Shown here: one piece after another, positions 61,678-64,000 of the stretch
How positions within the stretch are numbered: the stretch's first letter is position 1
How the letters are laid out: every line of letters begins with the position of its first letter
Assembly (NCBI RefSeq): GCF_000170795.1
Contig: NZ_ABCM01000010.1
Coordinates: 62,001-126,000, forward strand
Direction of reading: 5' to 3'
Origin: Pedobacter sp. BAL39
Lineage (GTDB): Bacteria; Bacteroidota; Bacteroidia; Sphingobacteriales; Sphingobacteriaceae
DNA length: 64,000 nt
The notes under the pieces: generated by a model
Seen by the model: the letters and a program-made list of their open reading frames with translations, nothing else
What the model was told of the DNA's origin: nothing
The model's database searches: none
Program-made: the position numbers and the translations under genes

Positions 61678-64000
61678 CTAGAATAAACCAAGCTGCCCTG
61701 AGTTGTCAATGTCTACATCATCCGGATTGGTGATCTCCAGATCTATTTTTTTCGCTGGTTTCTCTTCTTTTTTAGCCTTACTGCTGTCACCCCAAACCTT
61801 CTTAGGTTTCTCAACTGTAGCATCAGGTTGCGCAGCATCCGATGCCGGAGGGACGTCAGCTGTTGCCGTATCCTGTGTTGGCGCAGCCTTATCAGGCGTA
61901 ACTTCCGTAGCTTGGGCTATTGGTGCTTGCTCAGCAGGTATTTCTACCTCAGCCGGCTTTTGCTTTTGAGCTGCGGGCTTCGCTGTGTTGAATGGCTTTT
62001 TAGCTGGCGCAGGCGCTGCTTCCGCCGCAGGCTCGTCCATTGGCACTTCAGCTTCCAGCACATCATCCGCTGTTGGTTCGGCAATCGTTTCAGAAGAATC
62101 TTCCATTTCGCTTACTGGATGATCCGCTATTGGCTCCTCAGAAAGCGACTCAGTCACCGCATCCTCCGCTCCTCCTTCATTTATATCAGTATCGTCATCA
62201 TTCTCATCCGGCTTGCCGCTTTCCAACTCGGGTTCTTCATGATTAAAGATGTCAATATGCTGAACATCATGTTGCGTCATCCGGTTGCCATTGGCCTTGA
62301 TGCCCTTGACATCGATAAATTCTGACAGTACAATCTCCAGTGTTTCCGGAATCTGTGTTTTACCTTTAAGCACATCCACCTTGAGCGTTGCCGCCGGGTT
62401 GCTCGTCAGGTACAAGAACCTGGATCCATTTTCTTCACTGATCAGTGTTTGTTTCTTACCTACCGCAATGGGCTCAAAGACAAATCTCTTGATAAAATGA
62501 TTTTTCGCCTTTCCTTCATATTGTACTACCGCAAAAGGTTTCTCAGGATCAAACTTCTGGATCAGGATCAGGTCGGCATCAAAGTGGTTGCTGAGCTCGA
62601 ATGTACTCAACTCATACCAGCCCTCTTTATGCACCTGCAGGATTTTATCCTCTCCATCAAACTCACCCAGGTACTTACCCCTTCCATCCACATTTAAGCG
62701 ACGCAGCAGGTCGTCATACCAGATCTTCAGCCCTGCCAGGGTAGATACCCCTTTGGTCTTTAACAGCACTTTTTTGATGGGATATTTAGAGACGATATTA
62801 CCCTGCGACCCACGACCCTTGATCGCAATTTCGGCATAGTCGATATCAAACTGTAACTTCTTCAACTTGGTGTGCGGCTTCAGCTGTACGTTGACCACCT
62901 CGGCCTCCCCATTAGGATTGGCCGTAAAATACAACACTCTAGAGCCTTTGGTACCCTTAGTGAGGTCATACTCTTTATCGCGGGTTACCCCCACCACAGC
63001 AAAACGTTTGATATAAGAAATACCACTTTCACCGTCTTTATAAATCATGTTGTAGATCGTGCGCTCATCACCTTTTTTAAATACCTGCGCATGCAGGATG
63101 CCTTTGCCCACAAAGGTTTTGTCGGCAACCTTGGTGATGATACATTTCCCGTTCTCGCGGAAAACAATCACCTCATCAATATCTGAACAATCGGCAACAA
63201 ACTCATCTTTACGCAATCCTGAACCTGTTCCGATGAAACCATCTTCACGGTTCATGTATAACTTCACGTTGGCGAGGGCAACCTTTGAAGCTTCCACCCG
63301 ATCAAATAAACGGATCTCCGTTTTACGCTGCCTTCCTTTACCATACTTGTCTTTTAACTTCTGGAACCAGGCGATGGCATAGTCAGTCAGGTGCCGCAAG
63401 TGGTTTTTAACCACTTTAATCTCATCTGCGAGGGCCTGCATCTGCTCATCAGCTTTCTTCACATCGAAACGAGTGATGCTGCTCATCGGCTTATCGATCA
63501 GCTTTTTGAAGTCTTCAGGCTGTATCGGGCGATACAATTGGGGCAGAAAAGGCTCGAACAAGTTGTTGAGCACAGCCACTACGGCATCAAAATTACCAGA
63601 ATTCTCATATTCCGGATGTTTATACATTCCCTCCTGGATGAAGATCTTCAAGAGTGAACTGAAGAAAATCTTTTCCTGCAACTCATTCAGGCGGATTTCC
63701 AGCTCCTGTTTCAGTAAGGCCTTGGTGTGCATGGTATTCTCAGTGAGAATATCATTGACACTCATAAAATGAGGTTTGTCGCCTTTGATGATACAGGTAT
63801 TCGGAGAGATGGAGACTTCACATGACGTGAAGGCGTAAAGCGCATCAATGGTCACATCAGGAGAGATACCTGGCGCCAGCTGCACCACGATCTCTACATT
63901 GGCCGCGGTATTGTCTTCAATCTTTTTGATTTTGATCTTTCCCTTATCATTGGCAGAAAGAATGCTGTCAATTACAGAACCTGTGGTGGTGCTGAAAGGG
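61678..64000 (-). CDS. parC: DNA topoisomerase IV subunit A, C-terminal part (5' end outside window)
   Basis: The reading frame is open from the window edge; about 773 residues are visible and the N terminus with the catalytic tyrosine lies outside. Recognisable parts are the coiled-coil gate region (KALLKQELEIRLNELQEKIF) and the beta-pinwheel C-terminal domain with repeated RVLYFTANPNGEAEV and SRFLYLTSNPAA blades. A low-complexity tail of about 200 residues rich in Ala, Pro, Glu and Asp follows, and the chain ends in SGQLGLF, which resembles the beta-sliding-clamp-binding peptide QL(S/D)LF. GyrA is an alternative, but the long tail and pinwheel type fit the Bacteroidota topoisomerase IV A subunit better. 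Confidence 0.85.
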   Translation of the reverse strand, partial: PFSTTTGSVIDSILSANDKGKIKIKKIEDNTAANVEIVVQLAPGISPDVTIDALYAFTSCEVSISPNTCIIKGDKPHFMSVNDILTENTMHTKALLKQELEIRLNELQEKIFFSSLLKIFIQEGMYKHPEYENSGNFDAVVAVLNNLFEPFLPQLYRPIQPEDFKKLIDKPMSSITRFDVKKADEQMQALADEIKVVKNHLRHLTDYAIAWFQKLKDKYGKGRQRKTEIRLFDRVEASKVALANVKLYMNREDGFIGTGSGLRKDEFVADCSDIDEVIVFRENGKCIITKVADKTFVGKGILHAQVFKKGDERTIYNMIYKDGESGISYIKRFAVVGVTRDKEYDLTKGTKGSRVLYFTANPNGEAEVVNVQLKPHTKLKKLQFDIDYAEIAIKGRGSQGNIVSKYPIKKVLLKTKGVSTLAGLKIWYDDLLRRLNVDGRGKYLGEFDGEDKILQVHKEGWYELSTFELSNHFDADLILIQKFDPEKPFAVVQYEGKAKNHFIKRFVFEPIAVGKKQTLISEENGSRFLYLTSNPAATLKVDVLKGKTQIPETLEIVLSEFIDVKGIKANGNRMTQHDVQHIDIFNHEEPELESGKPDENDDDTDINEGGAEDAVTESLSEEPIADHPVSEMEDSSETIAEPTADDVLEAEVPMDEPAAEAAPAPAKKPFNTAKPAAQKQKPAEVEIPAEQAPIAQATEVTPDKAAPTQDTATADVPPASDAAQPDATVEKPKKVWGDSSKAKKEEKPAKKIDLEITNPDDVDIDNSGQLGLF

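Follow-up and report, generated by a model that had tools for sequence, protein, structure and literature searches.

The C-terminal six residues of Escherichia coli DNA polymerase II (PolB), GQLGLF, bind the replication clamp DnaN, and the structure of the PolB peptide in complex with the clamp has been solved (3D1E, as described in the text of PMC11139829). The same source gives two published grammars for clamp-binding motifs, a pentamer and a hexamer, which share Gln at position 1 and Leu or Met at position 4, with Phe or Leu at position 5 or 6. The clamp is also bound by proteins that do not synthesize DNA: IS1634 and other transposases use a C-terminal QLxLF, and their binding is lost when its Q and F are mutated (PMC4549789). 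The protein described here, subunit A of topoisomerase IV (ParC) from a member of the Bacteroidota, ends in the same six residues as PolB, which is a polymerase and not a topoisomerase. With the transposases it shares a non-polymerase nature and a C-terminal QxxLF in a variable sequence context, binding having been shown in their case; they are, however, mobile-element proteins, whereas the present carrier is a housekeeping enzyme in which the motif is retained throughout a class.

For topoisomerase IV itself, the closest described arrangement is that of E. coli, where the enzyme trails the fork via SeqA and works with MukBEF (PMC11253446 and PMC7803763). It is the same enzyme held behind the fork by protein contact, with other partners. 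Our literature search, which screened largely by title and had most subscription journals outside its scope, returned no publication describing topoisomerase IV as a clamp client, and no direct match for a eukaryotic parallel of topoisomerase II with PCNA. In the main text of the clamp review PMC11139829 the words “topoisomerase” and “gyrase” occur 0 times, and the available text of an interactome paper names a DnaN-PolA contact and no DnaN-ParC contact (PMC10863985). From the comparison presented below, we consider it likely that this subunit carries at its C terminus a short linear motif for clamp binding, borne on a flexible leash that would tether the enzyme to DnaN at or behind replication forks.

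Topoisomerase IV subunit A and its C-terminal tail

The window, by which we mean the whole stretch of 64,000 nucleotides that was analysed, encodes on its minus strand (61678-63999) the C-terminal 773 residues of topoisomerase IV subunit A. No stop interrupts the frame before the window edge, beyond which it extends to a complete ORF of 1020 aa in the genome. A sequence-only reading of this DNA had named the protein and its SGQLGLF end, and both identifications hold: the 773-aa fragment, used as query, matches NCBIfam NF009397 with 894.7 bits, above the family's cut-off of 780, and direct codon reading places QLGLF where it had been proposed. The fragment also matches the Pfam domain PF00521, and its closest named relatives belong to Pedobacter. 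What remains of the PF00521 domain covers residues 1-209 of the window part (63373-63999, minus strand), the N terminus lying outside the window, and the secondary structure of the AlphaFold2 model predicts an all-beta C-terminal domain at about residues 245-590 (62230-63267, minus strand).

The C-terminal end of the protein reads ...EITNPDDVDIDNSGQLGLF. The reverse-strand codons at 61678-61698 are GGG CAG CTT GGT TTA TTC TAG, that is, G-Q-L-G-L-F-stop. The pentamer QLGLF, a putative DnaN (beta-clamp) binding peptide on the grounds of its conservation and its identity to the E. coli PolB end, occupies residues 769-773 (61681-61695, minus strand), and the TAG stop codon lies immediately 3' of it (61678-61680, minus strand). 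It supplies the Gln, Leu and Phe of the published pentamer. The earlier reading had treated the middle residue as a departure from the consensus, a view we do not retain, since position 3 is highly variable among the motifs discussed in the text of PMC11139829 and PolB has the same glycine there.

The chain leading to the motif is predicted to be disordered. From residue 591 on, the pLDDT of the AlphaFold2 model, built from a 50-row alignment, drops from 82 to block means of 34-47, and low-pLDDT segments begin at residue 595 of 773, which gives a tail of 179 residues without predicted structure (61681-62217, minus strand). It is rich in Ala, Glu, Asp and Pro, with A, E, P and D together making up ~55% of residues 595-768, a segment that holds 2 aromatics. 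The disordered, Ala/Pro/Glu-rich character suggested beforehand is therefore borne out by the prediction, and the suggested length of about 200 residues was close to the 179 obtained. According to the model, the motif sits in the disordered segment, a disordered or exposed position being expected of clamp-binding motifs. In relatives, the tail past the aligned core measures 0-299 residues, with a median of 85. Within the protein's own family (f1) the linker is variable, the commonest residue reaching a frequency of 0.17-0.40 at 30-60 residues from the end, and the motif's Q and F both reach 0.99.

The motif is preceded by an acidic stretch, EITNPDDVDIDNSG (61696-61737, minus strand), which is kept in f1 only and is present as a single copy in the own genome, where ParC was the only match when further copies of the end of the tail were sought. 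Among 156 f1 rows, E, I, T and N of its EITNP segment occur at 0.91-0.93 and P at 0.90. The longer EITNPDD, directly N-terminal of the motif, is likewise conserved in the own family only and is not required by clamp binding as known.

Conservation and grammar of the motif in relatives

C termini were taken from 257 loci and 20 more, which gave 267 rows in 51 families after duplicate loci of one genome had been merged and open frames (L082, L104, L238 and L416) dropped before the counts; one further genome (G037) matched the query and lies outside the row set. The sample covers one phylum and one E. coli, and at a threshold of 1e-60 no match was obtained in 107 of the 148 genomes of the phylum. 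We defined a broad motif as Qxx[LMIF][FLI] or Qxx[LMIF]x[FLI] within the last 15 residues and a strict motif as Qxx[LM][FL] or Qxx[LM]x[FL], and used as control the last 40 residues shuffled in 200 rounds. Counts for f1 are inflated because 80 named loci, assigned to it by the analyst, partly duplicate other rows, some being of the same species as other genomes (L003 and L035, like L022 and L096, have equal ends).

The broad motif is present in 256 of the 267 relatives, f1 with its inflated counts included, against an average of 6.2 and a maximum of 16 for shuffled tails; the strict form is present in 232, against 1.6. Outside f1, in 111 rows free of species overlap, the broad form is found in 100 and the strict form in 91. 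At least one broad-form row occurs in 47 of the 51 families, and every row carries it in 43. Family f56 comes from a different class of the phylum, and each of its four sampled members has QIGLF followed by one or two terminal residues. The earlier reading, which had staked its proposal on conservation in relatives, survives this comparison with an amendment: against a variable linker, what is kept corresponds to the broader published definition of the clamp motif and not literally to QLxLF, and the Leu at the second position is not required, as I, M, P, G and T are also seen there.

Since the regular expression fixes Q, the invariance of this residue is to be read only from the 50-row alignment, which was made independently of the motif. 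The last column of the folded part conserved at 90% or more is G571, and after the fold only Q769 and L772 reach that level. At the DNA level, the 98 family rows ending in QLGLF use 67 spellings of the five codons and the stop, which shows purifying selection on the peptide. The same diversity of spellings led us to reject a signal residing in the DNA itself.

The motif varies within recognizable limits. Pentamers outside the own family (n=57) consist of Q, then M, I, P, G, L or T, any residue, L (in 55 of 57) and F, while hexamers (n=37) have L at position 4 in 31 cases and L or F at position 6 in 36. Position 2 is thus chiefly aliphatic but tolerant, position 3 is free, position 4 is Leu, and Phe follows at position 5 or Leu/Phe at position 6. 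Pentamer and hexamer have replaced each other at least 16 times on a quick tree of 131 core sequences, a minimum obtained with no shuffled control, and a single family, f52, mixes 8 pentamers with 6 hexamers.

The 11 rows without a terminal motif comprise one truncated protein, one broken gene, three with internal copies, and others with near-forms or none. The internal copies are QTALF together with QADLF in one row, two QASLF in another and QKDLF in the third. In a count restricted to tails longer than 27 residues and leaving out their final 12 positions, an internal Q..[LM]F occurs in these 3 of the 11 rows versus 0 of the 256 others (Fisher p = 5e-5, a value that ignores relatedness, two of the three cases coming from one family). 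The motif also persists on short tails: in f35, with 5-29 residues past the aligned core, it is still present in 5 of 6 rows, and in f22 the query match stops at residue 411, yet all three members end in QMKMEI or QIKLEI. These f22 proteins (L411-L413) are shorter topoisomerase IV A frames of 715-732 aa with QxKxEI ends.

A second tail motif, G.T[IV][DE][FLW], was observed in 10 rows (L161, L176, L235, L027, L142, L143, L148, L157, L224 and L233) from five families (f2, f15, f17, f48 and f55). In some of these rows it precedes the clamp motif, and in others it forms the extreme C terminus.

The clamp pocket and the genome background

All 30 sampled genomes have DnaN. The host protein is predicted to adopt the clamp fold (pLDDT 92.2), and its top PDB match is the clamp of another member of the Bacteroidota, Elizabethkingia anophelis (8dt6; TM 0.95, 45% identity). 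We compared the 18 pocket residues named in the text of PMC11139829 across the 29 of 30 clamps that could be aligned there, L297 falling outside. Nine of the 18 are identical in the host clamp (R152, T172, H175, L177, P242, V247, N320, M362 and P363), and these nine are kept in 27-29 of the 29 aligned clamps. They include most of the core that contacts Gln, Leu and Phe, but not Arg246, which in the text of PMC11139829 touches the residue following one E. coli motif. Six changes are mild (L155M, G174A, R176K, V360L, Y323F and M364V) and three are not (R246A, V344N and R365M). Judged by these residues, from which affinity cannot be read, the pocket is recognizable, and partly conserved, in the host clamp.

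The GyrA C termini of the 30 genomes have acidic tails, with the motif in 0 of 30, and E. coli K-12 ParC has no such C-terminal motif either. One GyrA (L269, from G002) has a 1238-aa frame whose end is unlike the other acidic GyrA tails and may represent a fusion.

As genome background we used 1015 ORFs from 1.2 Mb of the own genome plus the window. This sample replaced an initial set of 238 flanking ORFs because the 24 strict matches in the last 10 residues of that set were nearly all copies of one neighbouring gene. The strict motif lies in the last 7 residues of 3 of the 1015 ORFs, namely ParC, RuvB and a DUF763 protein, and in the last 15 residues of 11. Families of DNA replication or repair account for five of the 11: ParC, RuvB, DNA ligase LigA, a DNA polymerase III alpha type protein and an exonuclease of the RNase_T type, which is similar to the epsilon subunit but stays under the cut-off of that family. 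The other six are the DUF763 protein, a TetR regulator, an ECF sigma factor and three ORFs without a family.

RuvB of the own genome (L325:10914-12002, minus strand) ends in QTGMLF; among the RuvB C termini of the 30 genomes (L379-L408), 27 of which were readable, 26 show xLF close to the terminus, the remaining one having QLSIPL, and the full QxxLF being present in 8 of the 27, which makes it a weaker clamp-like tip. The DUF763 protein (L357:13472-14755, plus strand) ends in QQLKLF, a good clamp-like motif. Likely clamp motifs are also QEQLF near the end of the polymerase III alpha type protein (L363:8275-11505, plus strand) and QLKMKF in the epsilon-like exonuclease (L325:4724-5764, plus strand).

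Proposed tethering to the clamp and competing explanations

A C-terminal QxxLF could occur by chance and serve no function, and the three strict matches in the last 7 residues of 1015 ORFs show that single cases do occur. We rejected this explanation as scarcely credible, given that the motif is carried by 256 of the 267 relatives, versus 6.2 expected, and is present in 47 of the 51 families, and that the protein sequence is kept while the codons vary. It is also very unlikely that the tip of the tail mimics the acidic C-terminal tip of SSB and docks on a tip-reading protein. Acidic residues do stand ahead of the final hydrophobic LF in the own family. SSB tips require a free C-terminal Phe; the window protein has one, but 32 of the 256 motif-bearing relatives extend one to seven residues past the motif, and we rejected the mimicry on that account. 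The hexamers, which end in L or I, the retention of Gln and the three rows with the motif inside the tail speak against it as well.

Somewhat less remote, yet still unlikely, is the explanation that the motif binds a different partner, such as ParE, the enzyme's own beta domain, a segregation factor or a protease, and that its likeness to clamp motifs is convergent. The conservation of EITNPDD beside the motif in the own family, unneeded for clamp binding, would fit such a partner, as would the additional tail motif in five families. Against this, the tail remains undocked in the single-chain AlphaFold2 model, the exchange between pentamer and hexamer is known clamp-motif behaviour, and 5 of the 11 strict-motif ORFs in the same genome sample fall in DNA replication or repair families.

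If the tail is a clamp tether, as we favour, the Q-x-x-L-F (or Q-x-x-L-x-L/F) peptide would dock in the hydrophobic pocket of DnaN in the manner of the PolB end. The A2B2 enzyme would carry two tails, and the clamp, a dimer, offers two pockets. Clamps at the fork, or those left behind on new DNA where precatenanes form, could then retain topoisomerase IV, which could remove the links between sister chromosomes as they arise. A search of 30 Bacteroidota genomes gave no SeqA, and MukB gave weak partial matches in 4 of the 30 and none in the own genome, from which we infer that a direct clamp link could fill their role. More tentatively, and with somewhat less than even confidence, we suggest that the Bacteroidia clamp acts as a standing recruiter for sister unlinking in place of SeqA and MukBEF, and that RuvB and other repair proteins of these genomes may share its pocket, making the clamp a hub of segregation and recombination.

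Even for E. coli, the way in which topoisomerase IV reaches its substrate behind forks is a matter of debate (PMC7803763). If the proposed tether is real, about 50 families would possess a direct link of five residues between decatenase and clamp that can be deleted, and the question of substrate finding would become testable in one step. Topoisomerase IV would represent a new class of clamp client, and inhibitors of the clamp pocket could also disturb chromosome unlinking in the Bacteroidota phylum.
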